From assembly GCF_030815865.1 (NCBI RefSeq), contig NZ_JAUSXI010000001.1, positions 2,480,001 to 2,544,000 on the forward strand: a stretch of 64,000 nucleotides of DNA. Reading direction: 5' to 3'. This document shows positions 7,055-57,340 of the stretch, one piece after another; the first letter of the stretch is position 1; each line of letters opens with the position of its first letter. The DNA is from Arthrobacter globiformis. GTDB lineage: Bacteria; Actinomycetota; Actinomycetes; Actinomycetales; Micrococcaceae. The position numbers were made by a program, and so were the translations under genes. The notes beneath the pieces were generated by a model, which was given only the letters and a program-made list of their open reading frames with translations, was not told where the DNA came from and made no database searches.

Positions 7055-7140
7055 GGGTTTTCCGTTCGTTGAGCAGTTGCCGTGCGCGGGTGCAGAGGTT
7101 GTGGTCTTGTGCGGCGGGGAGAATGCGTGCCGCGGGTGGG

Positions 7141-8788: not shown

Positions 8789-8883
8789 TGTTCCTTCCAA
8801 GCCCGTTGCTGTTGGGCGAGTATGGCCTGTTCCGCAGATGAGGACCCAACCGGCCCGGTCTCGGTTTCTATCTGTGATGTCAT
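8785..8883 (-). CDS. small ORF coupled to the ThDP gene
   Basis: 32 residues, MTSQIETETGPVGSSSAEQAILAQ..., ATG at 8883, ending in a TGA that overlaps the GTG start of the ThDP gene (GTGA, 4-base overlap). It may be a translational-coupling leader, the remaining N-terminus of a deleted upstream gene, or a natural N-terminal extension separated by a frameshift. Ribosome-binding site is weak (GAGAGATAAG). Not recognised. Confidence 0.35.
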   Translation of the reverse strand: MTSQIETETGPVGSSSAEQAILAQQQRAWKEQ

Positions 8884-9124
8884 GTTTCTTATCTCTCGCT
8901 CTGCAATCCATACGACTAGTGGGTCGGGACGGGGGGATCGTGACGTCCACGAAAAACACATTGCGTCCGGCCTTGGCTGCTCGTTTGTAGACCACCGGTC
9001 TGCCGGGTAGCGGTGCCGGTGCGGCCCGGCGGACATGAGGACAGCGAAGGGCTGCTCACTGCTCATGTCCGCCGGGCCGCGGAATCGTGCGTCCCAATAG
9101 AGCTAGGGCAGGCTCACGCGGGCT

Positions 9125-9802: not shown

Positions 9803-9805
9803 GGG

Positions 9806-10717: not shown

Positions 10718-10739
10718 CTTTTCCTCCGTGTTCATTGGT

Positions 10740-15132: not shown

Positions 15133-15241
15133 CCTTCATTGGAAATCATTCATCGGCATTGGGCAGAGGACGGCCCCGAGTGTTGTGGCCCGTGCGGGTT
15201 CAGGGCGACATCCATCGGTGGGTCCTCAGCGGAGGTAATAC

Positions 15242-16102
15242 TCAGGCCAGTGATTCACCTGGGTCCTGGGCTGTAGTCAGTGAGTGGCTGCGTTCAATGT
15301 GGACTCGTGAGAGCGCCGCTGCCGCCTCGCGCACAGCGCCGGCATGGCGTTCCAGTTCTTGCTGGCCTCCACGTTCGCTGGGAATGACCAGGGAAATGGA
15401 GGCGAGCACGAATCCGTCGGCGGCGAGGACCGGCGCCGCCACTGCGCAGACCCCGGGCTTCCATTCCTCGTTATCGAATGCGATACCGGCGTCCCGAACC
15501 GCGCGCCACTTCTTTCGCATGGAATTCACGTCGAGACCGTGGGGCGTGGCATGGGACAGAGATGCATATCGTGCGTCCCAAACTACCTCTGGCGCGAACG
15601 CCACGAGGACCTGCGCGTCGGCGGTCATGAGCCCGCGGACCACCATTCCGGCTGAGGTGAATGGTTGGAAGTGCCTCTGCGTCGTGACGAGGTCCAGTGA
15701 CAGGGCTCCCTCGTGGCCCCATACCGAAAGAAGTGCGGACTCGGTAGTAGCCTGAGCGAGCTGTTCCAGGTATGGCCTGGCTTCACTGACCAGCACGCTT
15801 GCCGATGTCTTCGCGAACAGGCTTTGAAGCATTCGGGGGCCCAGAGTGAGGTTGCCAGCGGCATCCTGCTCAACCCAGCCCAGCCGCTCCAGCGTAAGCA
15901 TAAGACGCCGCACTGTCGCCTTCGCCAACTGCGATTCTTCCCGCAGTTCCCGAAGTGTCCAACTTGGCCGCTCTGTTGTGAAGAGCCCCAGCAGATACAG
16001 TCCGCGCTCGAGTGTACCCAGCGGCGCGGCCCCCTCAGACTGCGGGCCTGCAGGTTCATAGCCGGCATTGCTTGCCGTGAGGGTGTTTGCAATGTCCGTC
16101 AT
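15242..16102 (-). CDS. IclR-family transcriptional regulator of the aromatic operon
   Basis: 286 residues from ATG 16102, which has GGGGAAGAG just upstream (the longer upstream frame lacks one). N-terminal winged helix about 30-90 (GTLERGLYLLGLFTTERPSWTLRELREESQLAKATVRRLMLTLERLGWVEQD) and a C-terminal IclR effector domain (ALLSVWGHEGALSLDLV, GLDVNSMRKKWRAVRDAGIAFDNEEWKPGVCAVAAPVL). IclR proteins of this kind regulate aromatic catabolism and bind a pathway intermediate. It sits between the minus-strand catabolic operon and the plus-strand dehydrogenase cluster, with a palindromic operator candidate 44 bases upstream of its start, so it could control itself and both transcription units. Confidence 0.85.
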   Translation of the reverse strand: MTDIANTLTASNAGYEPAGPQSEGAAPLGTLERGLYLLGLFTTERPSWTLRELREESQLAKATVRRLMLTLERLGWVEQDAAGNLTLGPRMLQSLFAKTSASVLVSEARPYLEQLAQATTESALLSVWGHEGALSLDLVTTQRHFQPFTSAGMVVRGLMTADAQVLVAFAPEVVWDARYASLSHATPHGLDVNSMRKKWRAVRDAGIAFDNEEWKPGVCAVAAPVLAADGFVLASISLVIPSERGGQQELERHAGAVREAAAALSRVHIERSHSLTTAQDPGESLA

Positions 16103-16145
16103 GGCTCTTCCCCTTTCATCGACGCTGATGTTATGCTCCTCACAG

Positions 16146-16184
16146 GGTTCATTCAGTGGATCCAAGAGATTCACTGGTTGAACC
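16146..16184. promoter_or_regulatory. palindromic operator candidate for the IclR regulator
   Basis: GGTTCATTCAGTG (16146-16158) and CACTGGTTGAACC (16172-16184) form an inverted repeat, 11 of 13 positions, with a 13-base spacer. A third half-site TTCAGTG lies near 16197. The position, between the IclR start and the divergent cluster, fits an IclR-type operator. Confidence 0.5.
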
Positions 16185-16245
16185 GTAGCAGGAAATTTCA
16201 GTGATAGCAATGGATGTTTTGCAACTGGATCAAGGGAGATCAGCT

Positions 16246-16651: not shown

Positions 16652-17779
16652 ATGACTCAGACCATGACAGCAGCACGGATGCATGCAGTCGGCGAACCGA
16701 TGGTGCTTGAAGAAGTACCACTGCCCATACCGACAGGCGCCGACGTCCGCGTGCGTGTGGAGAGCTGCAACATCGTCCCCAACCTCGCGAATATCCTTGC
16801 GAATTGGACCACCTGGTTTCCGCAAAACCCGCTGCCGGCGCTTCCGGCCATTTTTGGGCTGGATCCGGCAGGTGTGGTCGAAGCAGTTGGTCCGGACGTT
16901 AGAGTTTTCGCACCCGGGGACCGTGTTTACGTGAATCCGGGTCGTTCCTGTGGTGCATGCAAAGAATGCCGGAGCGGCAAGATCATGCACTGCCAGCACT
17001 TCGCGTTCGCAGGCTACTTCGGACTTACCCCGACGTCGTCAGTCATGCTGGACCGGTACCCCTACGGCGGTCTGGCCGAGTACACCCTTGCTCCCGAGGG
17101 TTCTTTGGTCCGTCTGCCCGATAATCTGAGCTTCCACCGGGCAGCACGGTTCGGTTACCTCGGCACCGGGTACGCAGCCCTGCAGAAGGCACAGCTGGGA
17201 CCTGGCAGCAGCCTGCTGATCAACGGCATCAGCGGAACCCTCGGACTCGGCACAGCACTGTTCGCTCTCGCCCAGGGAGTAACCACCATTTTGGGCACGG
17301 GCAGAAACCGCGAACTGCTCGAGCGGGTGCGCGCAATCTCCCCGGACCGCATCCAGGTCTTTTCCACCGACGACGGGCCCATCGACAAGTGGGTGTCGGA
17401 AGTGACTGACGGTGGTGTGGACGGATACATCAGCGCACTCGGACCCAACACCCCGCACGCTCCTTTCCTTGAAGGGCTGCGGTCGCTGCGCAGGGGCGGT
17501 GTCGCAGTCAACGTCGGCGCAACGGCCGGCGATGTCCCGATCGACGTTCATCACCTGATGGACCAGCAGCAATCCCTCGTGGGATCCTGCTGGTTCTCGC
17601 CCGGAGAAGGCCAGGAAATGGCAGCCCTTGCCGGTTCAGGCGCGGTCGATTTGTCAGTGTTTGAAGATGTCGTCTTCGGCCTGGAAGACGTCAACGACGC
17701 TATTAACGGCCTGGAAAACCGCAACGGAGGCTTCAGCAACTACGTCATCTCTCCCAACGGTGGCAATGGCAATGACTGA
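16652..17779 (+). CDS. zinc-type (MDR family) alcohol dehydrogenase-like oxidoreductase
   Basis: 375 residues, medium-chain dehydrogenase/reductase. Structural-zinc cysteines are present in PGRSCGACKECRSGKIMHCQHF (about 91-112). The Rossmann part reads LLINGISGTLGLGTALFALAQGVTTILGTGRN with a degenerate G-x-G pattern. The usual catalytic GHE is GLD here (FGLDPAGVV), so the standard catalytic-zinc His is missing while a Cys remains (SCNIVPN); activity or zinc use may differ from classical ADH. ATG 16652 follows GGGGAGAGGAGAAG. Its stop lies inside the start of the cupin gene, so the two are coupled. A decayed copy of its 3' end occurs at about 20185-20320. Probable role: oxidation or reduction of an aromatic alcohol/aldehyde intermediate (inferred). 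Confidence 0.8.
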   Translation: MTQTMTAARMHAVGEPMVLEEVPLPIPTGADVRVRVESCNIVPNLANILANWTTWFPQNPLPALPAIFGLDPAGVVEAVGPDVRVFAPGDRVYVNPGRSCGACKECRSGKIMHCQHFAFAGYFGLTPTSSVMLDRYPYGGLAEYTLAPEGSLVRLPDNLSFHRAARFGYLGTGYAALQKAQLGPGSSLLINGISGTLGLGTALFALAQGVTTILGTGRNRELLERVRAISPDRIQVFSTDDGPIDKWVSEVTDGGVDGYISALGPNTPHAPFLEGLRSLRRGGVAVNVGATAGDVPIDVHHLMDQQQSLVGSCWFSPGEGQEMAALAGSGAVDLSVFEDVVFGLEDVNDAINGLENRNGGFSNYVISPNGGNGND

Positions 17780-18374
17780 GCCGGTCACCCGGCCTACGTT
17801 TCACGTCGGGCTCAACGGCGTTGCTCCTCCAGGGGAACCGACCGCCGCCATTCGTCGAGTCGTGACAGGCATTTCCGCTGACGGAAGTTCCTGCGTCGTC
17901 AGCGACGGTATGCCGCCTCGCTCCCACGAGCATCTGGAGACGCCGGGAATGGTGAACACAATTGTCTGGGCGACACCTGCGTCGTCGCGGCCCATGCACC
18001 TCGATCTCACCTCGGACCTTGTCAGCGTTGTCCCGGGCGACGGGGAATCGGTGGCTTTGGTCGTCACCTTTCCACCGGATTCCGTTTTCGCGGACCCGCT
18101 ATTTGATCCCGCCAAAGCGGCGCAGGAACAGCTCGAGGTCACACCCGGACTCGCTGAATTGTTCGAGCAGGACAACCCGGGGTTCCACACAACCCCCACG
18201 ATCGACTACGGAGTCGTGCTAAGTGGAGAGATCGTGCTTGACCTCGACTCGACCCGCACTGTCCTGCGACAGGGGGACATTGTCGTGCAAAACGGAACCA
18301 GGCACGCCTGGCGGAACGTGACCGAGGAACCGACGAGGGTCTTCTTCGTGCTCCTCGGAACGAAGCGAGCATAG
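17766..18374 (+). CDS. cupin-domain protein
   Basis: About 202 residues from ATG 17766 (ATG 17772 also possible), overlapping the dehydrogenase 3' end. The N-terminal half starts FHVGLNGVAPPGEPTAAIRRVVTG; the C-terminal half holds one cupin barrel, IDYGVVLSGEIVLDLDSTRTVLRQGDIVVQNGTRHAWRN, with the second motif (GD-x-V-x-x-x-x-x-x-H) complete and the first poorly conserved. It resembles cupins encoded in aromatic operons that act as accessory isomerases, decarboxylases or ligand sensors. It is too short for a gallate or homogentisate dioxygenase and has only one apparent His-rich motif, so I do not call it a ring-cleavage enzyme. Its end (AACGAAGCGAGCATAG) is duplicated in degraded form near 20645. 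Confidence 0.75.
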   Translation: MAMTEPVTRPTFHVGLNGVAPPGEPTAAIRRVVTGISADGSSCVVSDGMPPRSHEHLETPGMVNTIVWATPASSRPMHLDLTSDLVSVVPGDGESVALVVTFPPDSVFADPLFDPAKAAQEQLEVTPGLAELFEQDNPGFHTTPTIDYGVVLSGEIVLDLDSTRTVLRQGDIVVQNGTRHAWRNVTEEPTRVFFVLLGTKRA

Positions 18375-18497
18375 GGCAGCGCGCCTTCTTAGACCCATAA
18401 GCCGGTCGACGTCCCGCAGCGCAATGTTGCGTTGCGGGAAGGACGCCTCCCACCCACATCAAGTGGTCCGGAATTACCAATACCGAAAGAAATGATC

Positions 18498-20018
18498 ATG
18501 ACTCAAACAACTGTGAGGAGTGCCGGGTCGACGGAACCGACCACGGCAATGAAGTCGTCCTATCTCCTCCACACGCTGGTCGGACTCGTCCTGATGGCAG
18601 TGATTTCCTTCCTCCCGGCACCGGCGCCGGTGACGTCCACTGGGATGGTGGTTATTGGCGTGTTCGTCGGAGTCCTGTACCTCTGGACGTTCGTCGACCT
18701 CGTATGGCCGAGTGTCCTCGGCATCGCACTAAGCTCCTTCTTCATCAATTCAGTCATGGAACCCCCGGGCCTCCACGGCGTTTGGAAGGCACTACAGGAA
18801 TCAGCGGGCAGCTGGGTCGTGGCCTTCGTCGTCGGCAGCCTCCTCCTCACCTATGCTCTGAACGAATCCGGCCTAACCAGCAGGATTGCGGACTGGTTCC
18901 TCTCCCGACGTTGGGCCCAGCGAAGCCCATGGTCATTCACCTACAGCTTGTTCGCGTGCTCTTTCATCCTGGGCATGTTCCTGGACCTCATCCCCACCCT
19001 GGTCTTCATGATCGCCCTTCTGAACGTCGTTTTCCGCAAACTCGGGTACACGTACGGCGAAAAGTATCCTCTGGCAGTCATCATCGGCTGCACCTTCCTG
19101 ATCAACATTGCATTCGCGATCAGCCCGATCTCACACCCGGTCACGCTCATCGGCTTCGGCGTTTTCACGGGCGCATCCAAGGGCGCTTCGATCGGATTCG
19201 TCGAGTACATGATCGTCGGGATCCCCGTAGGGATCATTGCCGCCGTCCTCATTGCCCTGTTTCTGCGATACGTCGCCCGCCCGAACACGGACAGGTTCAA
19301 GACGGTCAACTACGCTGAACTGGCCTCTGAGAACGCCACACCGCTGAGCCGGCGCGAAGTGGCCACAGCAGTAATCTTCACCCTTGTGGTGATCACCTGG
19401 ATTTTGCCGGGCCTGATCAGCCTTTTCGCGCCCCAATCGCCGATCGTTGCGTACTTCGACGACGTGACCTTGATCGTCCCGACGCTCTTCGGGGTTATCC
19501 TCCTGATGCTCCTACGTATCGGAGGTAAACCTCTCCTTGATCATGCGGCGGCATTCCGCTCCATCCCTTGGGGCGTCATTTCGCTCGTCGCATGCGCGAT
19601 TCTCTTCGGTACGTTGCTCACCGAAGACAGGGTAGGGCTGAACGCCTTCCTCGTCGGAGCACTCAGCCCACTATTCGCCTCAGGGATGAGCCCGTTCTGG
19701 GTCATGCTCCTCCTGGTCCTTGCGATCGCACTCATCACCAATGTCGTGAACCATGTGCCGGTGATCATCATGTTCGTCGCAGTTTGCGTGCCCCTTGCCG
19801 AATCGCTCGGGGTGGATAACCGCCTGATCGGAACGCTCGTGATCCTGGCGGCACAAATGGGTTTCGCCTTGCCGTCGTCGCTCGCGTCAGTTGCTTTGAT
19901 CTTCGGCGATCCCTGGGTAAAGCCTGCCGCGGTCGTGCGATACGGAGCGTACGCAACGCTGGTTTCCGCACTTACCATCGCCTTGATCGGCTACCCGATC
20001 GCAAGCCTGGTCTTCTGA
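18498..20018 (+). CDS. SLC13/ArsB-NhaD-superfamily anion transporter
   Basis: About 506 residues with roughly 12-13 hydrophobic segments, starting YLLHTLVGLVLMAVISFLPAP. Polar patches typical of DASS/CitM-type carriers are visible: FILGMFLDLIPTLVFMIALLNVVF, FLINIAFAISPISHPVTLIGFG, and ALITNVVNHVPVIIMFVAVCVPLA in the second half (the SNT/NVV-x-H-x-P motif region). It likely imports a carboxylate, plausibly the aromatic or dicarboxylic acid metabolised by the neighbouring genes, coupled to Na+ or H+. ATG 18492 is an equally good start (MIMTQT...). It follows the cupin by about 120 bases on the same strand and probably shares its transcript. Confidence 0.8.
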   Translation: MTQTTVRSAGSTEPTTAMKSSYLLHTLVGLVLMAVISFLPAPAPVTSTGMVVIGVFVGVLYLWTFVDLVWPSVLGIALSSFFINSVMEPPGLHGVWKALQESAGSWVVAFVVGSLLLTYALNESGLTSRIADWFLSRRWAQRSPWSFTYSLFACSFILGMFLDLIPTLVFMIALLNVVFRKLGYTYGEKYPLAVIIGCTFLINIAFAISPISHPVTLIGFGVFTGASKGASIGFVEYMIVGIPVGIIAAVLIALFLRYVARPNTDRFKTVNYAELASENATPLSRREVATAVIFTLVVITWILPGLISLFAPQSPIVAYFDDVTLIVPTLFGVILLMLLRIGGKPLLDHAAAFRSIPWGVISLVACAILFGTLLTEDRVGLNAFLVGALSPLFASGMSPFWVMLLLVLAIALITNVVNHVPVIIMFVAVCVPLAESLGVDNRLIGTLVILAAQMGFALPSSLASVALIFGDPWVKPAAVVRYGAYATLVSALTIALIGYPIASLVF

Positions 20019-20184
20019 GCCGGATAACAACCGCGAAGAGCACCGCATCCTATCGAATCGCCCCCGTTGCTCTCCTATACCGCTTAGAAGAGTCACATTG
20101 ACCGTCGGCCAAGACCTCATGTCCTTCCTGGTCTCCGACACCGGCGTAAAGGTCCAGAACCCAAGCAAGGGCTGACTTCGGTCT
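20019..20184 (+). other. intergenic with a short coding-like fragment
   Basis: A TTG-started frame at 20099-20175 reads LTVGQDLMSFLVSDTG... and stops with TGA. It looks like the tail of some protein but is too short to place. Confidence 0.25.
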
Positions 20185-20695
20185 CGCGGTCGCTGCGCAG
20201 AGGCGATGCCACAACCCGCACTCTGCGCAGCAGCGGCGCTGTCCCCATCGTCATCAGCGGATGGCCCAGCAATCGCTCGCCGGAACCTGCTGCTCCTCGC
20301 CCTTATGGCGGCATTGGGTTAGACCGGCGTGGTACTGCAGGCCTGCTCCGGACCGGTTCCTCAGTCAGCTTGCCCGTCCCTTCGAACAACGACGTTCAAC
20401 CCCAAGCATGGAAGGCAGTACAATGCATCTCTTGAAGACCCTGCTCCTCCTCAGTTCCGGACAGGCCTCGGCCCCACACCCCATCACCAGCAATGTCCAG
20501 CCAGCGTTTCCCACGGGCTTCCTGACATCCAATGCTTGGGAAGGCTGGTGGCATGACGACACCCCTCACCCCGGAACACCTGCACACCCGGAGAACTAGT
20601 CCTACAACAATTTGCTTTGTACCCCTCGAAACGAAACAGGCATAGGACAACACGTCTTCCTACACCCACCCATCAGCCTGTGCACGTCCCGCAGG
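20185..20695 (+). pseudogene. degenerate, internally deleted copy of the dehydrogenase-cupin 3' ends
   Basis: 20187-20310 (GGTCGCTGCGCAGAGGCG ... CAGCAATCGCTCGCCGGAAC) parallels the dehydrogenase at about 17474-17600 (GGTCGCTGCGCAGGGGCG ... CAGCAATCCCTCGTGGGATC). 20615-20695 (CCCCTCGAAACGAAACAGGCATAGGACAACACG, then CACGTCCCGCAG) parallels the cupin end and its downstream sequence at about 18345-18420 (CTCCTCGGAACGAAGCGAGCATAGGGCAGCGCG, then GACGTCCCGCAG). The order is the same, so this is a remnant of a second dehydrogenase-cupin pair from which most sequence was deleted. No frame survives. Confidence 0.6.
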
Positions 20696-20884
20696 GGCCC
20701 CACGTTCAAGCCACTCATGCAACATGAAGCTTGACATCCGACCCTGGCGCCTCGCGTTTTCCCGTCCAGTGGGAAAGCCATGGATTTACCGACGTGTGAC
20801 CGGCAACACTAGGCAGGCGGGCGGGAAATCGGCGACTAGTGACGTGGCTGGTGCGCCCATCTACTTACTTATCGGAGGTTTTGT

Positions 20885-21847
20885 ATGGAACTGAATGAAC
20901 CGGAGCTCAAGCTCCGCGTCCAACGGAAACAAAGCACTGCAGATGGCGTCACAGCTTTGACCCTCGTCGACGTCAAAGGGCGGCCATTGCCGCCATGGTC
21001 TGCCGGTGCCCACATCGAACTCGACCTGGGCTCGGAGCTGATCCGTCAGTATTCTCTCTGCAGCCCCCTTGACGATCGGACGGAATGGAAGGTGTGCGTC
21101 CTCCGGCAGGCTGAGGGCCGAGGTGGTTCCCGCCACATCTGCGACAACGTTGAAGCCGGGGACGTCCTCATGGCAAGAGGGCCGCGGAACAACTTCGAAC
21201 TGCTGGCAGCCAAACGCTACATCTTCATCGCGGGAGGTATCGGCATCACCCCGCTCCTTCCCATGATTGAGCAGGCCGAGGCGGACGGAATCCCTTGGAC
21301 CCTGACTTACGGCGGCCGAACACTGGGCAGCATGGCAGAGGCTCAAACGCTGCGAAACAAGTACTCCGACAAAGTCGTTCTTTGGCCGCAGGACGAAGCC
21401 GGGCTGATGGACCTGAGAGCCATCATCAGCTCTGCTGGTGAAGAATCACTAATCTATTGCTGCGGACCCGAACCGCTGCTCCAAGGGCTCGAAACAGTAC
21501 GGGTAGAAGCAGGACTGGCCGCCGGGAGGGTACGCACCGAACGCTTTGCTCCGAAGGTACTTGCCGAGCCAGCCCGACAGAAAACTTTCAAAGTCGAATT
21601 CGCCCGCTCCCGCATCGCCGTTGACGTCGGGCCGGGCATCTCAATCATGGACGCCGCCAAGGCAGCCGGGGTACCAGTCCTCTTCTCCTGCTCAGAGGGA
21701 ACATGTGGCACCTGTGAGACCGGCATCATCGCCGGAGCGGTCGAGCACCGGGATTCGGTACTGACGCAGGAGGAACAGGAGGAAAACCAGACAATGATGA
21801 TCTGTGTCAGCCGGGCGGCCTGCGACAAGCTGACACTCGACCTTTAG
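20885..21847 (+). CDS. VanB/PFOR-type oxidoreductase (FMN/FAD, NAD(P)H, C-terminal [2Fe-2S]), electron donor to the adjacent P450
   Basis: 320 residues: flavin-binding barrel (WSAGAHIELDLG, RQYSLCSPLDD), GGSRHICDNVEAGDVLMARGPRNNFEL, NAD(P) domain starting FIAGGIGITPLLPMIEQA, YCCGPEPLL, and a C-terminal plant-type ferredoxin with C-x4-C-x2-C (CSEGTCGTC) and a distal Cys (MMICVSRA). It transfers electrons from NAD(P)H through flavin and the iron-sulfur centre to an oxygenase. From memory the text is very like the reductase half of self-sufficient CYP116B P450s (e.g. P450RhF), and the next gene is like the haem half. GGAGG lies 7 bases before the ATG. About 70 bases separate it from the P450, so one transcript is likely. 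Confidence 0.88.
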   Translation: MELNEPELKLRVQRKQSTADGVTALTLVDVKGRPLPPWSAGAHIELDLGSELIRQYSLCSPLDDRTEWKVCVLRQAEGRGGSRHICDNVEAGDVLMARGPRNNFELLAAKRYIFIAGGIGITPLLPMIEQAEADGIPWTLTYGGRTLGSMAEAQTLRNKYSDKVVLWPQDEAGLMDLRAIISSAGEESLIYCCGPEPLLQGLETVRVEAGLAAGRVRTERFAPKVLAEPARQKTFKVEFARSRIAVDVGPGISIMDAAKAAGVPVLFSCSEGTCGTCETGIIAGAVEHRDSVLTQEEQEENQTMMICVSRAACDKLTLDL

Positions 21848-21919
21848 TCCCGGAACCGGCATAGACGCACCGGGACAGTAATCAGCAAGAACACTACAGC
21901 GAGTACAAGGACGTGCCCC

Positions 21920-23203
21920 ATGACTTCACCAACCCCTGCCGCTGCAACTGCCCCTTCGGGCCGCTGCCCATTCTCCGGGGACGCCGGAGACTTCTCCTCC
22001 TTCTTCTCGGGCCCTTACCAGCAGGATCCAGCCGCTTCCCTCAAACGGGCCAGGACGGAAGAACCTGTTTTTCACGACCCCGAAACCGGCTACTGGGTGG
22101 TAACGCGCTACAAAGACGTCAAGCGCGTCTTCAGCGAATCAAAATCCTTCTCTGCAGCTGTGACACTCGCGCCGGTCATGCCTCCCTCAGCGGAAGCTGG
22201 AGAAGTCCTGCAAAAATACGCTTTCGCGCCGAGCCCTGTCCTCATTGATTCAGACCAACCCGTACATCGCACTATTCGGCGACTCAACGCTCCGGTTTTC
22301 ATGCCTGAAAACATCGACCGCCTGGAAGATTTCATCCGGACCACGACAAATCGTTACATTGACCGTTTTGCCGAGAAAGGTCAAGCTGACCTGGTCGCAG
22401 ATCTCCTCTGGGATGTTCCCTGCCTCATCGCCCTGGAATTCCTGGGTGTCCCCGAGGAAGACGTCGACACCGTCAGGAAGCTTGCGACATCCATGACGGA
22501 GTTCATCTGGGGTCAGGCGTCGCCGGAGGAACAGGTTCACGCGGCCGAAGGCCTGGGCAAGTTCTGGGCTATGGCCGGGCGTATCGTCGAAAAGATGAAG
22601 CAGCTGGACAATCCGCCGGGCTGGATCGGCCACACAGTTAAGCTTCAACGAGAACATCCTGAGTTGTTTCCCGACTCCTACCTGCAGACGAACGTAATCG
22701 GCGGGACTATGGCCGCTCACGAAACCACGACGAACGCTACCGCTAACGCCTTGTTGACCCTGCTGCAAAATCGCGGCCAGTGGGACTCGATCTGCAAGGA
22801 CCCGTCGCTAATTCCGGCAGTGGTCGAGGAGTGCCTTCGCTACAGCAGCTCCGTGGTCGCTTGGCGCCGGACGGCAAAGGTAGATGTTGAGATCGGCGGA
22901 ACAACCATTCCTGCCGGAGCCAACGTTCTGATGGTTATCGCCTCCGCTAATCATGACGAGGACATTTTTGATGCGCCCGACGAATTTGAACCGACGCGGT
23001 CCAACAGCACCGCCCATATTGCCTTCGGCCACGGTCCGCACATGTGCCTGGGCAACCATCTGGCGCGATTGGAGATGAAAATCTTCCTCGAAGAGCTCTC
23101 ACGGCGGCTGCCCGGCATGCGCCTTGATGATCAGGAATTCACTTACCTGCCCAACACCTCATTCCGCGGACCTGAAAAGCTTCAGGTCAGCTGGAACCCG
23201 TAA
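21920..23203 (+). CDS. cytochrome P450, CYP116B-like haem domain, probable aromatic O-demethylase
   Basis: 427 residues, soluble bacterial P450. I-helix motif GGTMAAHETTTNA, E-x-x-R in VEECLRYS, haem loop FGHGPHMCLGNHLARLE with the axial Cys near residue 375, and an end FTYLPNTSFRGPEKLQVSW. These segments, with GYWVVTRYKDVKRVF, closely match the haem domain of CYP116B enzymes as I remember them, but here the haem protein is a separate polypeptide encoded after its reductase. CYP116-type enzymes dealkylate methoxy- and ethoxy-aromatics or thiocarbamates. Formaldehyde-fixing genes directly downstream make O- (or N-/S-) demethylation the likely reaction. The exact substrate is unknown; guaiacol- or vanillate-type compounds are inference. 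Confidence 0.88.
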   Translation: MTSPTPAAATAPSGRCPFSGDAGDFSSFFSGPYQQDPAASLKRARTEEPVFHDPETGYWVVTRYKDVKRVFSESKSFSAAVTLAPVMPPSAEAGEVLQKYAFAPSPVLIDSDQPVHRTIRRLNAPVFMPENIDRLEDFIRTTTNRYIDRFAEKGQADLVADLLWDVPCLIALEFLGVPEEDVDTVRKLATSMTEFIWGQASPEEQVHAAEGLGKFWAMAGRIVEKMKQLDNPPGWIGHTVKLQREHPELFPDSYLQTNVIGGTMAAHETTTNATANALLTLLQNRGQWDSICKDPSLIPAVVEECLRYSSSVVAWRRTAKVDVEIGGTTIPAGANVLMVIASANHDEDIFDAPDEFEPTRSNSTAHIAFGHGPHMCLGNHLARLEMKIFLEELSRRLPGMRLDDQEFTYLPNTSFRGPEKLQVSWNP

Positions 23204-23663
23204 ATCCCTGATCGACCCCATACAGGGAGAACGCAAGACGACGACGGCGATACGCCTAGATCTCCATCCTTCACTGTAAGGAAAAGTTCCTCCAAGGTTG
23301 GCCTTCGCATGTTGCGCGCGTACAACCTCGCCGAGTGGGGTGCCCAAATCGGCAGGACCAGCTGCTGCCGAAACTCTGTACAGGGTCGAAGGCTGGCGGT
23401 GCCCGATGCCCTGTCCGATGTGCTGTGCCCAAGGAGAAGCTCCAGCTGCTCGTAACAACTCAGAGGGGCGGACCAACAGCACTGACCCACGCACATGAAC
23501 CTTGAGTAATCACCCACGCAACTTTCAACCGACCGCAAGTCACTACAGAACGAAAGAACACTCGGCCTAACAGCATTCATTCCGGGGGTCATCCGGATCG
23601 AGACAACTTTCCGAACTCCACGCACGATCCCATAAAGAAATCATCAGAAAGCGAACAATAACA
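23204..23663 (+). other. intergenic, 460 bases, between P450 and the formaldehyde-fixation genes
   Basis: One small frame (about 23309-23455, MLRAYNLAEWGAQIGRT...) has no ribosome-binding site and is probably a relic. AT-rich stretches near 23630-23660 could hold a promoter for the next genes, but I see no clear -35/-10 pair. Confidence 0.3.
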
Positions 23664-23789
23664 ATGCAACGACGCATTACTAGGGCCCTTGGAGCTGCTG
23701 CGATATTCGCATCTATTCCACTCGTCGCCGCGGGCTGTAGAGGCAAAAAGGAACAGCCCGCAGCCACAACCGCGCAGGGTTCCCACTGA
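23664..23789 (+). CDS. 41-residue lipoprotein-like peptide coupled to hxlB
   Basis: MQRRITRALGAAAIFASIPL then VAAGC and a short polar tail ending GSH. This is a complete lipoprotein signal with a lipobox (VAAGC, Cys at 25), but only about 16 residues follow it. The TGA overlaps the ATG of hxlB (TGATG). It is probably the surviving N-terminus of a substrate-binding lipoprotein whose body was deleted, placing hxlB under its translation; a real micro-lipoprotein is the alternative. Confidence 0.5.
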   Translation: MQRRITRALGAAAIFASIPLVAAGCRGKKEQPAATTAQGSH

Positions 23790-24388
23790 TGACCCAGAGG
23801 AACGTTGCGACATCCACCGTGGACGAAACAGCACATTCCCTAGCCCTCAACCTATCTCTCATCCGTGACGAGATCGCTGCAACAGCTGCCGGGATAGACC
23901 AGCGGCAATTGGCGGCATTGACAGCGCATATCGGACTGGCCGACAGGATCTTCGTCGCCGGAGCCGGGCGGAGCGGCCTGATCCTTCGGACCGCAGCCAT
24001 GAGATTGATGCACCTGGGCCATACGGTCCACGTCGTCGGCGACACCACCACACCGGCGATAGCTTCCGGTGACCTGCTCCTGGTTGCTTCCGGCTCCGGA
24101 ACCACATCCGGGGTCGTCAAGGCGTCTGAAACTGCAGCCCGGGCGGGGGCGCGGATCGCTGCATTCACCACCAACCCGGAGTCACCGCTGGCGGCACTGA
24201 CCGATGCCCTGGTCATCATTCCTGCAGCTCAAAAGACCGACCATGGATCCAGTCTTTCCCGCCAATACTCAGGAAGCCTTTTCGAACAGACCTTGTTCAT
24301 CGCCACGGAATCTGTCTTCCAGACCCTCTGGAACAACACCAATGAGCCGGCCGAACAGCTCTGGCTCAGGCACGCAAACCTCGAATAG
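23789..24388 (+). CDS. hxlB: 6-phospho-3-hexuloisomerase (RuMP pathway)
   Basis: 199 residues, one SIS domain. It converts D-arabino-3-hexulose 6-phosphate to fructose 6-phosphate, the second step of formaldehyde fixation. Visible: IFVAGAGRSGLILRTAAMRLMHLG (sugar-phosphate loop), VVGDTTTPAIASGDLLLVASGSGTTSGV (S-G-S-G-T-T phosphate motif) and SLFEQTLFIATESVF with the catalytic-side Glu. Length is right for PHI (about 180-200). Its ATG overlaps the stop of the micro-lipoprotein; hxlA follows after 58 bases on the same strand. The hxlB-hxlA order next to a P450 points to detoxification or assimilation of the formaldehyde released by demethylation. Confidence 0.9.
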   Translation: MTQRNVATSTVDETAHSLALNLSLIRDEIAATAAGIDQRQLAALTAHIGLADRIFVAGAGRSGLILRTAAMRLMHLGHTVHVVGDTTTPAIASGDLLLVASGSGTTSGVVKASETAARAGARIAAFTTNPESPLAALTDALVIIPAAQKTDHGSSLSRQYSGSLFEQTLFIATESVFQTLWNNTNEPAEQLWLRHANLE

Positions 24389-24446
24389 ACGTTCCCGCCT
24401 AGTTTTCCACTCACCGCAATTCATTACAGAAAGAAACAACATCATC

Positions 24447-25070
24447 ATGAAACTCCAAGTTGCTATGGATCTCCTCACCGTCGAAGACGCTCTCGAGCTG
24501 GCTGGTAAGGTCGCTGAGCACGTTGACATCATCGAGCTCGGGACACCGCTGATTAAGGCAGCCGGTCTCTCCGCTGTAACCGCGGTGAAGAATGCCCATC
24601 CTGACAAGATCGTCTTCGCTGATATGAAGACCATGGATGCAGGGGAGCTGGAGGCCGAGATTGCTTTCAAGGCCGGTGCCGACCTCGTCTCTGTGCTCGG
24701 AAGCGCCGATGACTCTACCATCGTGGGAGCCATCAAGGCAGCAAAGGCCCACAACAAGGGCATCGTTGTAGACCTTATCGGTGTTCTCAACAAGGTGGCC
24801 CGGGCCAGGGAAGTGCGTGCCCTCGGCGCCGAATTTGTCGAGTTCCACGCCGGCCTGGACGAGCAGGCACAGCCTGGCTTCGACTTGAATGGTCTGCTGC
24901 AGGCCGGTGAAGAAGCCAAGGTCCCGTTCTCTGTCGCAGGTGGCGTAAACGCATCGACCATCGAGGCTGTCCAGCAGGCCGGAGCTGATGTTGCCGTCGC
25001 CGGCAGCGCCATCTACAGCGCAGCCGACCCGGCCTTGGCCGCCAAGGAACTCAACGCAGCCATCGCCTAA
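24447..25070 (+). CDS. hxlA: 3-hexulose-6-phosphate synthase (RuMP pathway)
   Basis: 207 residues, OMP-decarboxylase superfamily barrel. It condenses formaldehyde with ribulose 5-phosphate to hexulose 6-phosphate. Starts MKLQVAMDLLTVEDALEL; IIELGTPLIKAAG; the superfamily metal/catalytic motif IVFADMKTMDAGE (D-x-K-x-x-D); VEFHAGLDEQA; VAGGVNASTIEAVQQAGADVAVAGSAIY for phosphate binding. The ATG at 24447 matches known HPS starts; the longer upstream frame overlaps hxlB and is not used. Ribosome-binding site is modest (GAAAGAAA). Third-position GC is slightly lower than in zwf, suggesting a different origin for the hxl pair. Confidence 0.92.
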   Translation: MKLQVAMDLLTVEDALELAGKVAEHVDIIELGTPLIKAAGLSAVTAVKNAHPDKIVFADMKTMDAGELEAEIAFKAGADLVSVLGSADDSTIVGAIKAAKAHNKGIVVDLIGVLNKVARAREVRALGAEFVEFHAGLDEQAQPGFDLNGLLQAGEEAKVPFSVAGGVNASTIEAVQQAGADVAVAGSAIYSAADPALAAKELNAAIA

Positions 25071-25226
25071 ATTACCGCCACATCCGGCCTGCGGCGGCGG
25101 CCCGCACCTGACGGTGTCGGCCACCGCTGCAGGCCACTAGGCATCGCAATATGATCAACCCCTTGGGTCGTTCGTTTTTGGCCCCAAGACTCCGCCCTGC
25201 AGCAAATTCAACACAAGAAAGCAGCA

Positions 25227-26780
25227 ATGCACACCACTCTTGAACGGCGCCGGCAGCGGGCGAGTAATCCGCTCCGTGACCCACGCGACCGCCGCTTGAG
25301 CCGGATCGCCGGTCCGTCGTCGCTGGTGCTCTTCGGAGTGACCGGTGACCTTGCCCGCAAGAAGCTCATGCCGGCGGTGTATGACTTGGCGAACCGTGGG
25401 TTGCTGCCGCCCAGCTTCGCGCTGGTCGGTTTCGCCCGGCGTGAATGGGACAAGGAGGACTTCGCCGCTGAGGTGAAGGCCTCCGTGCAGGCCTACGCGC
25501 GCACGCCTTTTGACGAGGCGGTGTGGAACCAGCTCTCGGAGGGCATCCGCTTTGTGCAGGGCGAGTTCGGCGACGACGGCGCCTTCGAGCGGCTCGGCGA
25601 AACCATCAAGGAACTCGACGACGTCCGCGGCACGCGCGGCAACCACGCGTTCTACCTCTCGATCCCGCCCAAGGCGTTCGAACAGGTCTGCCGGCAGCTG
25701 TCCAAGCACGGCCTGGCCCAGGCCGACGGGGACAAGTGGCGCCGCGTGGTGATCGAGAAGCCGTTCGGGCACGACCTCGAGTCGGCCCGGAAGCTAAACG
25801 ACATTGTGGAGTCGGTGTTTCCTGCGGACGCTGTGTTCCGGATCGATCATTACCTGGGCAAGGAGACGGTCCAAAACATCCTGGCGCTGCGCTTCGCGAA
25901 CCAGCTGTTCGAGCCGCTGTGGAACGCGAACTACGTGGACCACGTCCAGATCACCATGGCCGAGGACATCGGCACCGGCGGCCGGGCAGGGTATTACGAC
26001 GGCGTGGGCGCGGCCCGCGACGTCATCCAGAACCACCTGCTCCAGCTGCTCGCCCTGACCGCGATGGAAGAGCCCATCTCCTTCAACGCCGATGACCTGC
26101 GCGCCGAGAAGGAAAAGGTCCTCGCCGCCGTCAAGCTCCCCGACGACCTGTCCACGCACTCCGCGCGCGGCCAGTTCACCGGTGGCTGGCAGGGCGGCGA
26201 ACAGGTCCAGGGCTACCTGGAGGAGGAAGGCATCCCCGCCGATTCCACCACCGAAACGTTCGCCGCGATCCGGGTGGACATCCACACCCGCCGCTGGTCC
26301 GGCGTGCCGTTCTACCTGCGCGCCGGCAAACGGCTGGGCCGGCGCGTGACCGAAATCGCCGTTGTCTTCAAGCGCGCTCCCAACCTGCTGTTCCGCGACC
26401 ACAGTGAAGATGACTTCGGCCAAAACGCGGTGGTGATCCGGGTGCAGCCCGATGAGGGCGTCACCATCCGGTTCGGCTCCAAGGTCCCCGGCACCCAGAT
26501 GGAAGTCCGGGACGTGACCATGGACTTCGGCTACGGGCACTCCTTCACCGAATCGAGCCCCGAGGCTTACGAGCGGCTGATCCTTGACGTGCTCCTGGGC
26601 GAGCCGCCGCTGTTCCCGCGGCACGAGGAAGTGGAGCTGTCCTGGAAGATCCTGGACCCCTTCGAAGAGTACTGGGCCGGGCTGGGTGAACAGCCCGAGC
26701 CGTACGCGCCCGGCAGCTGGGGCCCGGCCTCGGCCGATGAGCTGCTAGCCCGCGACGGACGCACGTGGAGAAGGCCATGA
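25227..26780 (+). CDS. zwf: glucose-6-phosphate 1-dehydrogenase
   Basis: 517 residues, normal for bacterial G6PDH. It oxidises glucose 6-phosphate to 6-phosphogluconolactone, making NADPH. N-terminal cofactor motif FGVTGDLARKKLMPA (about 37-51), substrate motif VIEKPFGHDL, active-site RIDHYLGKETVQN with the catalytic His, and RAGKRLGRR toward the C-terminus. It ends overlapping opcA (ATGA). Placed directly after hxlAB, it can regenerate NADPH for the P450 reductase and, with a 6-phosphogluconate dehydrogenase encoded elsewhere, ribulose 5-phosphate for hxlA. Codon use is more GC-rich than in hxlA. In many actinobacteria zwf-opcA is chromosomal, so this may be a second, island-borne copy. Confidence 0.93.
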   Translation: MHTTLERRRQRASNPLRDPRDRRLSRIAGPSSLVLFGVTGDLARKKLMPAVYDLANRGLLPPSFALVGFARREWDKEDFAAEVKASVQAYARTPFDEAVWNQLSEGIRFVQGEFGDDGAFERLGETIKELDDVRGTRGNHAFYLSIPPKAFEQVCRQLSKHGLAQADGDKWRRVVIEKPFGHDLESARKLNDIVESVFPADAVFRIDHYLGKETVQNILALRFANQLFEPLWNANYVDHVQITMAEDIGTGGRAGYYDGVGAARDVIQNHLLQLLALTAMEEPISFNADDLRAEKEKVLAAVKLPDDLSTHSARGQFTGGWQGGEQVQGYLEEEGIPADSTTETFAAIRVDIHTRRWSGVPFYLRAGKRLGRRVTEIAVVFKRAPNLLFRDHSEDDFGQNAVVIRVQPDEGVTIRFGSKVPGTQMEVRDVTMDFGYGHSFTESSPEAYERLILDVLLGEPPLFPRHEEVELSWKILDPFEEYWAGLGEQPEPYAPGSWGPASADELLARDGRTWRRP

Positions 26781-27782
26781 TCGTAGACCTGCCCAACACC
26801 ACGACCTCGAAGGTTTCCAAGAAGATCCAGTCCCTGCGCGAGCAGGGCGGCGTGATCGCGCTCGGCCGGGTCCTCACCCTGGTGGTGGTCACCAAATCCG
26901 GGCTCGAAGAAGAAGCGATCGAAGCGGCCAACGATGCGAGCCGCGAACACCCCTGCCGGATCATCGTCCTGGCCGATGCCGGGGCAGACGCCGAGGACAA
27001 GCTGGACGCCCAGATCCGCGTCGGCGGTGACGCGGGAGCATCAGAAGTGATCGTGCTGCGTGGTTACGGCCAGTTGGCGCACGAAAGCGAGTCCCTGGTG
27101 GCCGCGCTGCTGCTGCCGGACGCACCCATTGTGGCCTGGTGGCCGCACGGGGCACCGGAAAACGCCTGCGAAACCTCCATCGGCCGGATCGCGCACCGGC
27201 GAATCACGGATTCCGCGAACGAACCGGACCCCCAGCGTGCACTGGAGAATATCCGGCAAACCTACAAGGCCGGCGACACCGACCTCGCCTGGACCAGGCT
27301 GACGAACTGGCGGATCCAGCTCGCCGCCGCCCTGGACCAGGTGGACGGTGCCCCCGTCACCGCCGTGGCCGTCGAGGGTGCCTCGGACTCTCCCAGCACC
27401 ATCCTGCTCGCGGCCTGGCTGACTCTTGCCCTGGGCGCACCCGTGACCATCGTGCCGGACCCTGCCGGGACCGGCATCCGCCGCGTCCGGCTCTCCCGCC
27501 CCCGGGGGCGACGTCCAACTCTTCCGCCCGGGACTGTCAGTCGCCGAACTGACCCAGCCGGGCCAGCCCGCCCAGCGCATCTCCCTGCCGCGCCGCAGCC
27601 TGCGCGACTGCCTCGCGGAGGAGCTGCGCCGCCTCGACCCGGACGAAGTCTTCGGGGACAGTGTTCGTGACGGACTGACCGCCATAAAAAGGGCGACGCC
27701 CTTAGTACCCGCTGAGCTTCCGCAGGCTGGCGGCACCGGCTCTGAACATCAAGGAGTGCCATGCCTCAGCGGCATCAGCTAG
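26777..27782 (+). pseudogene. opcA: glucose-6-phosphate dehydrogenase assembly protein OpcA, frameshifted
   Basis: OpcA activates or assembles G6PDH in actinobacteria. The first ~240 codons are intact (MIVDLPNTTTSKVSKKI ... APIVAWWPHGAPE ... GAPVTIVPDPAGTGIRRVRLSRP). At 27498-27508 the run CCCCCGGGGG shifts the frame by one. Removing one C restores GGDVQLFRPGLSVAEL...RDCLAEELRRLDPDEVFGDSVRDGLTAIKRATPLVP, ending at TAG 27780-27782; unshifted, the protein ends in a Pro/Arg-rich tail at 27670. The homopolymer makes a sequencing error plausible. It overlaps zwf by 4 bases, and its tail overlaps the start of the next small gene. Confidence 0.82.
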
Positions 27783-28053
27783 TGAAAAGGCAACCCGTGG
27801 CGGTTGCTTGCATGTCCCGGATGGGACCCAGCACCACTCCTAATCCTCCGGGCCTGACTCCCATCCTGAATTGGTCAAACCTGACACAGGCTGACCAAGT
27901 AATGATTTACGAGGACGGATCACCCATCGCTTCAGGACGTGTGGACATGGTCGCCAGCGACGCAGCGTGTTGTGGCTTCAAGCAGACGGCACCGACTTGC
28001 GCCGTCTCTACCTGCGCCGCAACGTCACGGTGTACAAACGTGCCGCCCCGTAA
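27761..28053 (+). pseudogene. small conserved-looking gene, frameshifted; paralogue of 5148-5333
   Basis: ATG 27761 with AGGAGTG ribosome-binding site; reads ...LTPILNWSNLTQADQVMIYEDGSPIASGRVDMVASD, then after a frameshift near 27962 RSVLWLQADGTDLRRLYLRRNVTVYKR to TAA 28051-28053. It matches the product at 5148 over its whole length. The family appears to be a single small beta domain of about 60 residues of unknown role. Confidence 0.5.
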
Positions 28054-28130
28054 CGTCCCGCACCCCCACAGGAAGTGCTCCTTCGTAAAGAACGAAGGCA
28101 GGCTTTTCCCAACAGAAAGGAATCTTGAGA

Positions 28131-28440
28131 ATGACCACGCCTGACATAGTTACGACCGTATTAGACGCGGCACAACTCGAGCCTGTTCACGAGCTGAGTT
28201 CAACCTCGTCAATGGACTGCCTGGCCTCACCGGACCAGCTGTGAAAACTTTCCACCCCAGCGGAAGGAAGTTGTTAGCGGGATCGGAAACTGTCGGACTA
28301 CGGCTCCATCCTCAGTACGATAGGCCGGCCAATCCAACAGCACTGCTGTTTAAACCGCGGTGCATCGGTTGGACCTGCCACAAGACATGGAAGGGGCCCA
28401 AAGATCTACCATCTAGTACATCAAGGAACCCGATACGACG
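28131..28440 (+). pseudogene. short broken gene, unrecognised
   Basis: ATG 28131 with AAAGGA upstream gives MTTPDIVTTVLDAAQLEPVHEL and stops at 28242-28244 (37 residues). A second frame entered near 28195 reads EFNLVNGLPGLTGPAVKTFHPSGRKLLAGSETVGLRLHPQYD and stays open to the G tract, so the two probably belong to one frameshifted gene. No family recognised. Confidence 0.35.
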
Positions 28441-28444
28441 ATGC

Positions 28445-28457
28445 GGGGGGGGGGGGG
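28445..28457 (+). repeat. 13-G homopolymer immediately before an IclR gene
   Basis: A run of 13 G is followed by AGGTGC and the ATG at 28464, so the tract merges with the ribosome-binding site. Slipped-strand changes here would alter Shine-Dalgarno spacing or strength. Confidence 0.8.
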
Positions 28458-28463
28458 AGGTGC

Positions 28464-29285
28464 ATGGCTGGAAACAACGCTAAGGCCGGGTTATCGGTTG
28501 TTAGCAAGACGGTAGCCATCTTAGGAGCCTTCTCGGGCGAACGGACCGAACTGGGACTGACAGAACTGTCCCATGCGACTGGCATGCCCACGAGTACGGT
28601 CCATCGATTAGTTCAAGAGCTTGTGCAATGCGGGGCGCTCGAACGAACGGCAACCGGGCGGTACGTCGTCGGACTTAAGCTGTGGGGCATTGCCTCACGG
28701 ACGCCCTACAGCTATGCCCTAAGCGATGCTGCCATGCCCTACCTGCAGCAGCTACTGGAAACGACCCGCGGCCATGCACATCTCGCCGCGCTTCACGGCC
28801 AAAGTGCTCTGGTCTTGGAAAAGCTGTCCTGGGCGGAGTCCGAGCAGACCATCTCACGCATCGGCAGCAACTTGCCGCTGCACGCCACCGCGACCGGCCA
28901 AGTCCTGCTCGCGTATGCACCCCGCGCCTTACAGGAGGAAGTCCTAGCCGGTCCGCTGCCCGCATTTACATCGCGCACGATTACCGATCCGCTCATGTTT
29001 CGTCGGCTCTTGGCTATGATCCGGCACCAAGCAGTCTCGCGTAGCCTGGGTGAACTTGTCCCAGGCCTGGATGCGTGCGCGGCGCCGGTTTTCTGGCCAG
29101 ACCGGCAGATTGCCGGCAGCATCGGCAGCGTCGTCGTTTCAGGATCCTGCCCGCCCGCAGATCTCGAAGCGGCCGTCAGGAAAGCAGCCAAGGGACTTAG
29201 CGGTTTTCTTGAAAGCCCGGACTACGGCCTTGGTTCACGGGCACTATTTCGCCCGGTTCTAAGACCATCACACCCGCCGGAATGA
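28464..29285 (+). CDS. IclR-family transcriptional regulator
   Basis: 273 residues. Winged helix at about 8-75 (GLSVVSKTVAILGAFSGERTELGLTELSHATGMPTSTVHRLVQELVQCGALER) followed by an IclR ligand domain (HLAALHGQSALVLEKLSWAE, GSNLPLHATATGQVLLAYAPRALQEEVLAG, LVPGLDACAAPVFW). It lies downstream of the formaldehyde-fixation genes on the same strand and may regulate the P450/hxl unit (inference). Its ribosome-binding site is embedded in a 13-G tract, which is unusual and may make its translation variable. Confidence 0.82.
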   Translation: MAGNNAKAGLSVVSKTVAILGAFSGERTELGLTELSHATGMPTSTVHRLVQELVQCGALERTATGRYVVGLKLWGIASRTPYSYALSDAAMPYLQQLLETTRGHAHLAALHGQSALVLEKLSWAESEQTISRIGSNLPLHATATGQVLLAYAPRALQEEVLAGPLPAFTSRTITDPLMFRRLLAMIRHQAVSRSLGELVPGLDACAAPVFWPDRQIAGSIGSVVVSGSCPPADLEAAVRKAAKGLSGFLESPDYGLGSRALFRPVLRPSHPPE

Positions 29286-29402
29286 AGTGTCGCTTTTGTA
29301 CCATGCGGGCTGACATACCAATGATTTAGTGCAACTCACGCGTGGCGACGATCGCCGTCGCAGTAACGAACTTAGGAACCACCTACGCAGCATAGGAGAC
29401 CC

Positions 29403-57134: not shown

Positions 57135-57340
57135 GGACACTCCTTTTGGCTGGGGGTCGTATTTGGCGCCAGGCCTGGCATTTCGATCGCCTTGCACTGG
57201 TCCGGCAAAGTTGCCGGCGCTGCCCCGTTGCCCGAAAGCGGTGCTTCGATGAGGCTACCTCCCCAGGTTTCAGGACATCGAAGCACCATTCACGGGCACG
57301 GGACAGCTCATCCTTTGGACGCTTCTCTGACTACACGTGG

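Follow-up and report, generated by a model that had tools for sequence, protein, structure and literature searches.

Introduction

Formaldehyde removal is a possible rate-limiting step in the bacterial degradation of methoxylated lignin aromatics, according to passages of PMC8963497. Here, we have analysed a 64,000-nt stretch of Arthrobacter globiformis (contig NZ_JAUSXI010000001.1; hereafter the window, whose numbering is used for all coordinates without a prefix), in which the genes of a reductase and a cytochrome P450 of the CYP116 family are followed by hxlB, hxlA, zwf and opcA, a gene set for the handling of formaldehyde.

Several described systems come close to this locus. The one-carbon islands of Arthrobacter strains 31Y, 35W and MA-N2 combine primary one-carbon oxidation with the oxidation and assimilation of formaldehyde, and their lateral exchange has been argued (passages of PMC5023230). 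The gene numbers of Hpi, Hps, Zwf and OpcA nearly follow one another in these methylamine-using strains, but the primary oxidation is that of methylated amines, and the passages on the islands mention no CYP116-reductase pair (PMC5023230). In Burkholderia cepacia TM1, Hps/Phi remove the formaldehyde from vanillate demethylation (Mitsui et al. 2003, as cited in passages of PMC8879981 and PMC8963497); going by the citing papers' description, this likens our unit to a 3-hexulose-6-phosphate synthase (HPS) and 6-phospho-3-hexuloisomerase (PHI) that clear formaldehyde from an aromatic methyl ether in a non-methylotroph.

The plasmid pRHL3 of Rhodococcus jostii RHA1 (NC_008271) is also similar, as it carries a reductase of the phthalate-oxygenase-reductase (PDR/VanB) type, then CYP116, HemQ, pgi, gnd, hxlA, hxlB, LuxR and zwf within about 12 kb. 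It differs from the window in having gnd, pgi, LuxR, NADP-malic enzyme, EthD and HemQ, in the opposite strand of its hxl genes and in a P450 that is only 47% identical to ours, and no opcA is listed in the stretch viewed. The CYP116B proteins (P450 RhF, OhpA, CYP116B234) have haem and reductase domains homologous to the products of our two genes, but these are fused in one protein, in the other order, and fall in a separate set of the tree. The guaiacol demethylase GcoAB is likewise a two-gene system of P450 and reductase; in contrast, the reductase in the window has its 2Fe-2S domain at the C-terminus.

The first-pass annotation of this DNA knew of no described cassette that joins P450 demethylation, formaldehyde fixation and glucose-6-phosphate dehydrogenase (G6PDH). 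This has to be qualified by the Arthrobacter one-carbon islands (passages of PMC5023230) and by the public pRHL3 record; among the matches listed from the open-licence PMC literature, none describes CYP116 linked to hxlAB. It is firm that a known kind of formaldehyde unit lies here between a CYP116 P450 and a regulator gene, without its usual control site and with looser parallels in Rhodococcus. We argue, at roughly even odds (about 0.5), that this hxlB-hxlA-zwf-opcA formaldehyde-dissimilation unit serves the two-gene CYP116 system, which would release formaldehyde by demethylation.

Results

The reductase, P450, hxlB, hxlA, zwf and frameshifted opcA genes are consecutive and all on the + strand (Table 1), in the places where the first-pass annotation had put them, and the enzyme classes that it named are upheld. 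The intergenic gaps are unequal (72 bp between reductase and P450, 58 bp between hxlB and hxlA, 156 bp between hxlA and zwf), and the opcA start overlaps the zwf stop. The mechanical open reading frame (ORF) for hxlA opens at 24204; the gene start was placed at 24447.

The best PDB match of the reductase is the reductase domain of a fused protein (6kbh residues 478-786, E 1.2e-68), and the best matches of the P450 are 6kbh_A (E 1.5e-139) and other structures that we take to belong, like 6kbh, to the CYP116B subfamily. Since the two proteins best match the two halves of one fused protein, the P450 is of CYP116 type with its reductase encoded by a separate upstream gene. The P450 has the heme motif FGHGPHMCLG, AAHETT and ExxR, and in the reductase an NAD-binding module precedes the C-terminal 2Fe-2S domain, with RxYS and C-x4-C-x2-C motifs. 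A guaiacol demethylase of the CYP255/GcoA type was ruled out by the CYP116B best matches and the different domain order of the reductase; 5ogx, presumably GcoB, matches the window reductase through the 2Fe-2S domain only.

Members of a CYP family share more than about 40% identity. The window P450 is 47% identical to the RHA1 protein and 53% to an R. opacus protein, both named CYP116 by their sources, and 40.6-53.8% identical to 42 of 45 plasmid records, most of which bear no family name. It is not a self-sufficient CYP116B, as there are two ORFs with the reductase upstream. Judged by its adjacent partner, a PDR-type reductase, it is not of the CYP116A (ThcB) type either, in which the partners are a separate ferredoxin and ferredoxin reductase. 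In a tree of 104 rows built by a quick method, the rows that are fused by ORF length form one set without the window protein (39 rows, 100% support, including P0058 of only 468 aa), and the window P450 is in a separate set of 25 rows (99% support). A third set of six rows (88%) holds RHA1 pRHL3, pRHL1, both 1CP proteins, JS3073 and G1131; USK10 stands alone. The reductase-P450 order would not be obtained by a simple split of a P450-reductase fusion.

Standalone relatives of 61-97% identity occur in metagenomes and Rhodococcus, among others. At E 1e-100, a search of the 395 genomes of the host family gave, besides the window P450 itself, only the one in a genome called G062 here (76%) and two fused proteins. 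Nothing but the window P450 was obtained at this threshold from 396 genomes sampled across the phylum. The related-locus search of genome contigs returned six distant P450s only, and the genus of G912 has fused proteins only (9 of 19 genomes). A broken, partial second P450 copy is present in the host genome at L017:8660-9441 (C1:2861660-2862441), with 77% DNA identity over 784 bp.

HxlB, HxlA and Zwf all exceed the curated NCBIfam cut-offs. Compared with relatives, the ratio of nonsynonymous to synonymous change (dN/dS) is 0.04-0.13 for the reductase, P450, hxlB, hxlA, zwf and the first part of opcA, with synonymous change near saturation for the reductase and P450. These are therefore not chance ORFs, and the unbroken reductase, P450, hxlB, hxlA and zwf are under purifying selection. 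In opcA, residues 1-271 align to an unbroken host copy in one frame and residues 244-293 in another, which places the switch inside 27507-27586. The C-terminal part in the other frame is 98% identical to the host copy over 50 residues, and the shifted frame reaches a stop at 27780-27782, the end point of the region in the first-pass annotation; the alignment to relatives stops at about 27656-27704. Elsewhere in the host genome there are two further zwf-opcA pairs and a further hxlBA, and the window zwf is 93% identical to a host copy. Two other frame switches, in a thiamine pyrophosphate (TPP) enzyme gene near 8460 and in the 6-phosphogluconate dehydrogenase (6PGDH) matches at C1:3535005, suggest that some indels may be assembly errors.

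The frameshift in opcA, the broken P450 copy elsewhere and a missing promoter element (see below) would also be seen if the cassette were a functionless remnant, its promoter gone and its opcA decaying. We consider this the least probable of the explanations, since dN/dS is low with hxlB, hxlA, zwf, P450 and reductase all unbroken, the two other opcA copies could act in trans, and assembly error may account for some of the indels.

The second half of the module is of a known kind: hxlBA-zwf-opcA is a recurring unit in Micrococcaceae. hxlA is present in 111 of the 395 genomes of the host family. In the less biased sample of 30 non-window loci with short flanks (the 29 best-scoring hxlA matches and the host's other copy), zwf or opcA is beside hxlA in nine; in 19 longer stretches, picked partly because zwf or opcA had already been seen next to hxlA, the order hxlB-hxlA-zwf-opcA occurs in seven, with hxlA doubled in one. 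In 12 of 20 stretches (the 19 and the host's own) there is also a cluster of regulators, of which the member scanned has a GerE domain. In L078, a haem-dependent oxidative N-demethylase and a DmmA-like reductase are encoded 5 kb away from the unit, and in L060 the unit is near the reductase homologue; tkt, tal and rpe are present in L060, L067 and L074. In phage records, hxlA has distant matches only (12 records, <60% identity).

The position of the unit in the window is best seen by comparison with G062, which has the ADH (alcohol dehydrogenase, 70% identity), reductase (65%), P450 (76%), IclR (62%) and cupin (53%) genes in this order, with reductase, P450 and IclR adjacent, and no hxlA match at E 1e-30. 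The P450-IclR spacing there is 60-100 bp, and in the window the two genes are separated by 5.3 kb holding hxlB, hxlA, zwf and opcA. Most likely the hxl unit was inserted between P450 and IclR; in this comparison of two genomes by presence and absence, loss in G062 is a possible alternative. Among the window ORFs scanned, which were not all of them, no integrase or transposase was recognised, and the one 28-bp direct repeat in 15-36 kb is away from the edges of the unit. Of the relatives, L064 has an integrase and L065 an IstB protein within about 2 kb of the hxl genes. A run of 13 G at 28445-28457, just 5' of the IclR gene, is possibly a phase-variable or error-prone tract.

The window unit also lacks its usual control site. 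A promoter-like 51-bp element with 47 scored positions lies upstream of hxlB in relatives and scores above all 50 shuffles in 18 of the 21 non-window loci scored, out of 26 non-window hxlB loci in the alignment; the consensus was drawn from that same alignment, scored loci included. Scores are 28-47 in 17 Arthrobacter-type loci and 29 before the host's other hxlB copy, and the misses outside the window are L062 and the Rhodococcus-type L121 and L082. The exact 17-base core is also found before tkt in L060 (L060:14998-15014), and the element is also seen at L078:8755-8778. In Arthrobacter relatives, the element before hxlB is likely a one-carbon regulon site. Upstream of hxlB in the window only 20 of the 47 positions agree (shuffle mean 21.9), and the 24-base core has no match in the window within three mismatches. 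The best whole-window match, 31/47 at about 341-391 (-), is above 60 of 60 surrogates and far from hxlB. The absence of the usual element fits capture of the unit by another promoter. No promoter-like match was found in the P450-hxlB gap and no + strand terminator-like match in 20000-29400; read-through into hxlBA from a P450 promoter is possible. The stop codon of a 41-codon, lipoprotein-like ORF overlaps the hxlB start codon by one base.

As the first-pass annotation pointed out, a P450 system adjoins the formaldehyde-fixing pair and G6PDH. Comparable cases exist in two further genomes; both came from searches with the P450 that took no account of hxl, pRHL3 from a search of plasmids. We compared 17 reductase-CYP116 loci (window, G062, RHA1 pRHL3 and pRHL1, 1CP, JS3073, USK10, G1131, L152-L155 and L161-L165, with an EthD gene between P450 and reductase in USK10 and L161). 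hxlA lies within 10 kb of the pair in three of them, namely the window, pRHL3 and the Rhodococcus-like G1131, so that the non-window loci give 2/16 within 10 kb and 3/16 within 25 kb, the third being R. opacus 1CP with hxlA 24 kb from the P450. If genomes are taken as 8 Mb with one hxlA each, we estimate that chance would give roughly 0.04 such loci among the 16; within pRHL3 alone the estimated chance is about 0.06. G1131 was found among 387 genomes from the order to which G431 belongs; 18 of these had CYP116 at E 1e-100, and in three of the 18 it was standalone by frame length. Its hxlA is 0.6 kb from the P450, zwf and gnd are 1.8-4.4 kb beyond the reductase, and LuxR, hxlB, zwf and gnd are in the same 10 kb as hxlA. 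As the hxl genes of RHA1 and G1131 are 92-96% alike, the two linkages may come from one event.

Among 17 genomes with fused CYP116B, hxlA is nearby in none. Four of them do carry hxlA, at a distance of 0.68 Mb in G1159 and on other draft contigs in G378, G1017 and G1088; as some matches in these drafts reach the ends of contigs, closeness is still possible there. G1176 and further fused genomes from the genus of G912 are outside this comparison. The contrast of 3/17 with 0/17 is suggestive only. For standalone CYP116 without this reductase, the nearest hxlA is 34-44 kb away (R. koreensis, VOC-14), and G1013, G918 and L156-L160 have no hxlA in the stretch or genome searched.

Looser associations were also found. 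In R. qingshengii TG-1 (L083, NZ_CP077418, 5997-22520), hxlA is 7.6 kb from a reductase (51%) that has a different P450, with gnd, zwf, hxlB and LuxR beside it. These formaldehyde genes are a few kb away from genes of 2,4'-dihydroxyacetophenone dioxygenase and from an IclR-reductase-P450-aldehyde dehydrogenase set, so that a second P450 type is found by formaldehyde genes. L152-L154 and pRHL3 encode NADP-malic enzyme, another NADPH source, about 3.5 kb from the P450; in L153, the only one scanned, genes for a MoaF-like protein and an alpha/beta hydrolase lie between malic enzyme and the reductase-CYP116 pair.

Outside the locus, an aromatic catabolic set at 5567-16210 (-) is divergent to the ADH gene. 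It includes IclR, a 2-hydroxybiphenyl-3-monooxygenase-like protein, a vanillyl-alcohol/eugenol-oxidase-like protein, 4-oxalomesaconate hydratase (LigJ-like), an NMT1-type binding protein, 4-carboxy-4-hydroxy-2-oxoadipate aldolase (LigK-like), the frame-broken TPP enzyme and an aldehyde dehydrogenase; no ring-cleavage dioxygenase was recognised among the ORFs scanned. This set fits lignin-type phenolics and would hence point to a methoxy substrate. The upstream ADH was considered as a formaldehyde dehydrogenase and ruled out, its only NCBIfam match at 1e-20 being the generic NF041097, with 83.8 bits against a cut-off of 450. Rfam gave nothing at gathering thresholds.

Table 1. Features of the locus and its surroundings in window coordinates.
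Feature	Coordinates	Strand	Basis
Reductase, PDR/VanB type (phthalate-oxygenase-reductase type)	20885..21847	+	best PDB match and motifs
CYP116-family P450, unfused	21920..23203	+	PDB matches, heme motif, tree
41-codon ORF, lipobox-like N-terminus	23664..23789	+	read from sequence, frame translation
hxlB, 6-phospho-3-hexuloisomerase	23789..24388	+	TIGR03127 230.8 bits, cut-off 160
hxlA, 3-hexulose-6-phosphate synthase	24447..25070	+	TIGR03128 249.1 bits, cut-off 200
zwf, glucose-6-phosphate dehydrogenase	25227..26780	+	TIGR00871 647.5 bits, cut-off 400.6
opcA, one frame switch	26777..27782	+	TIGR00534 and alignment to host copy
IclR-type regulator	28464..29285	+	PF01614/PF09339; 62% identity to L028:17157-17957 (next to P450 in G062)
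Zinc alcohol dehydrogenase (ADH)	16652..17779	+	PF08240/PF00107; 70% identity to L029:2439-3545 (G062)
Cupin protein	17774..18374 (start inferred)	+	PF07883; 53% to L028:16537-17049 (G062)
DASS/CitMHS-type anion transporter	18432..20018	+	PF03600
BCCT transporter	38265-40163		
GbcB-like	45248-46777		219 bits, below cut-off of 500
GbcA-like Rieske enzyme	46660-47964		378 bits, below cut-off of 670
Glutathione-independent formaldehyde dehydrogenase	55917-57197		744.7 bits, cut-off 637

Discussion

If the unit serves the P450, this enzyme would receive electrons from NAD(P)H through the reductase, remove an O- or N-methyl group from its substrate and release formaldehyde. Going by the functions of their families, HxlA would join the formaldehyde to ribulose 5-phosphate and HxlB isomerise the product to fructose 6-phosphate; a host isomerase and the local or host G6PDH would lead on to 6-phosphogluconate, from which host 6PGDH would regenerate ribulose 5-phosphate with CO2. 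In this chemistry two NAD(P)H are gained per formaldehyde burnt, and each demethylation costs one. What we infer from the locus is methyl-group removal, from the genomic linkage, together with a joint transcript and a metabolic coupling of the P450 and the hxl unit; the coupling of P450 and formaldehyde fixation that the first-pass annotation proposed is plausible.

Its description of the module as self-contained does not hold. The isomerase and 6PGDH would come from elsewhere in the genome, and opcA is broken, though two other copies exist. In the dissimilatory ribulose monophosphate set of the genome, HPS, PHI and G6PDH are clear, for 6PGDH there is a match divided between two frames and a second, partial one, and PGI has a weak match only (22 bits).

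This dependence on the host is one of several observations that weigh against a unit serving the P450. The P450-hxlB gap is 585 bp, and the frame-broken OpcA is below the TIGR00534 cut-off (196.1 against 256.25 bits), as are both unbroken host copies (220-221 bits). Thirteen of the 17 reductase-CYP116 loci (G062, pRHL1, JS3073, USK10, L152-L155, L161-L165) have no hxlA within 25 kb or the shorter stretch examined, L162 and L163 ending near contig ends; the five nearest readable relatives (G062 and L152-L155; 63-76% identity) all belong to these. With reductase-P450-IclR and no hxl module, G062 shows that the P450 system exists alone. The P450 and the hxl genes are on opposite strands in both pRHL3 and G1131, so there is no shared P450-hxl transcript there. 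Moreover, RHA1 releases formaldehyde into the medium on vanillate despite its pRHL3 set (passages of PMC8963497), so that this set does not clear formaldehyde during vanillate growth.

Composition is also uneven across the locus. The GC content of third codon positions (GC3) is 0.67-0.69 for the reductase, P450, hxlB and hxlA and 0.84-0.88 for zwf and opcA, and GC3 in about 9-36 kb of the window is below that of much of 38-64 kb. The zwf and opcA DNA is about 87% identical to the host's own copies, and hxl-linked zwf genes of relatives reach at most 84%. Given the different GC3 of zwf-opcA and its closeness to the other copies in the host, the unit may be a patchwork assembled in two steps. 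The relative L065 shows a similar but weaker contrast in GC3 (0.71-0.79 against 0.84-0.90), which means that composition alone is no proof of this.

Some of these observations would suit a P450 that is a ring or side-chain hydroxylase releasing no formaldehyde, the hxl unit being a general sink that landed in a mosaic catabolic region. The physiological role of CYP116B given in passages of PMC8449657 and PMC11889516 is 2-hydroxyphenylacetate hydroxylation, with O-dealkylations among the promiscuous activities, which again tells against demethylation. G062 retains reductase, P450, IclR, cupin and ADH without an hxlA match, hxl genes are absent from about 9 kb around the pair in the Rhodococcus-like L152-L155 (63-66%), hxlA is common in the host family, and zwf-opcA is unlike the rest in composition. 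However, a sink that merely landed here would have done so on the same strand between P450 and regulator, with its usual promoter element absent, and hxlA is closer than 10 kb in two further reductase-CYP116 loci against the roughly 0.04 expected. We regard the hydroxylase explanation as unlikely, while taking it as a serious contender.

The window has a second likely formaldehyde source and sink, which weighs against the P450 as the partner of the unit: a betaine/one-carbon cluster at 38265-63957, mostly on the - strand. In addition to the genes in Table 1, it has an FdhF-like oxidoreductase, FdhD, MoaA/MoeA/MoaE, FolE, PabB and FolD. The hxl unit could thus serve a betaine-like methyl donor, imported by BCCT and demethylated by the GbcA-like Rieske enzyme. 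The host's other hxlBA is indeed 2-4 kb from relatives of IclR3 and BCCT, and hxlBA and BCCT are neighbours in three more genomes, at L041, at L053 and at the single place covered by both L036 and L066; in L076 a BCCT gene lies farther off. In the window, however, the BCCT, GbcB- and GbcA-like, FdhF-like, FolD, FolE and PabB genes are 10-36 kb off on the other strand with their own formaldehyde dehydrogenase, and the GbcA and GbcB model cut-offs are not reached, which makes this explanation improbable.

Beyond a unit that serves the P450 in this genome, we tentatively propose that reductase-CYP116 P450s could be a recurrent class of self-provisioned demethylases, which separately recruited hxlAB and NADPH makers (zwf, gnd or malic enzyme) in Micrococcaceae and Rhodococcus; we find this possible rather than probable. 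If it is true, P450 demethylation systems that travel with a formaldehyde sink and an NADPH supply would be a natural blueprint for engineering, and the prediction could be tested in R. jostii RHA1, whose pRHL3 carries such a set. A strain that acquires the oxygenase would then also become tolerant of the toxic product and have the cost in reductant covered.

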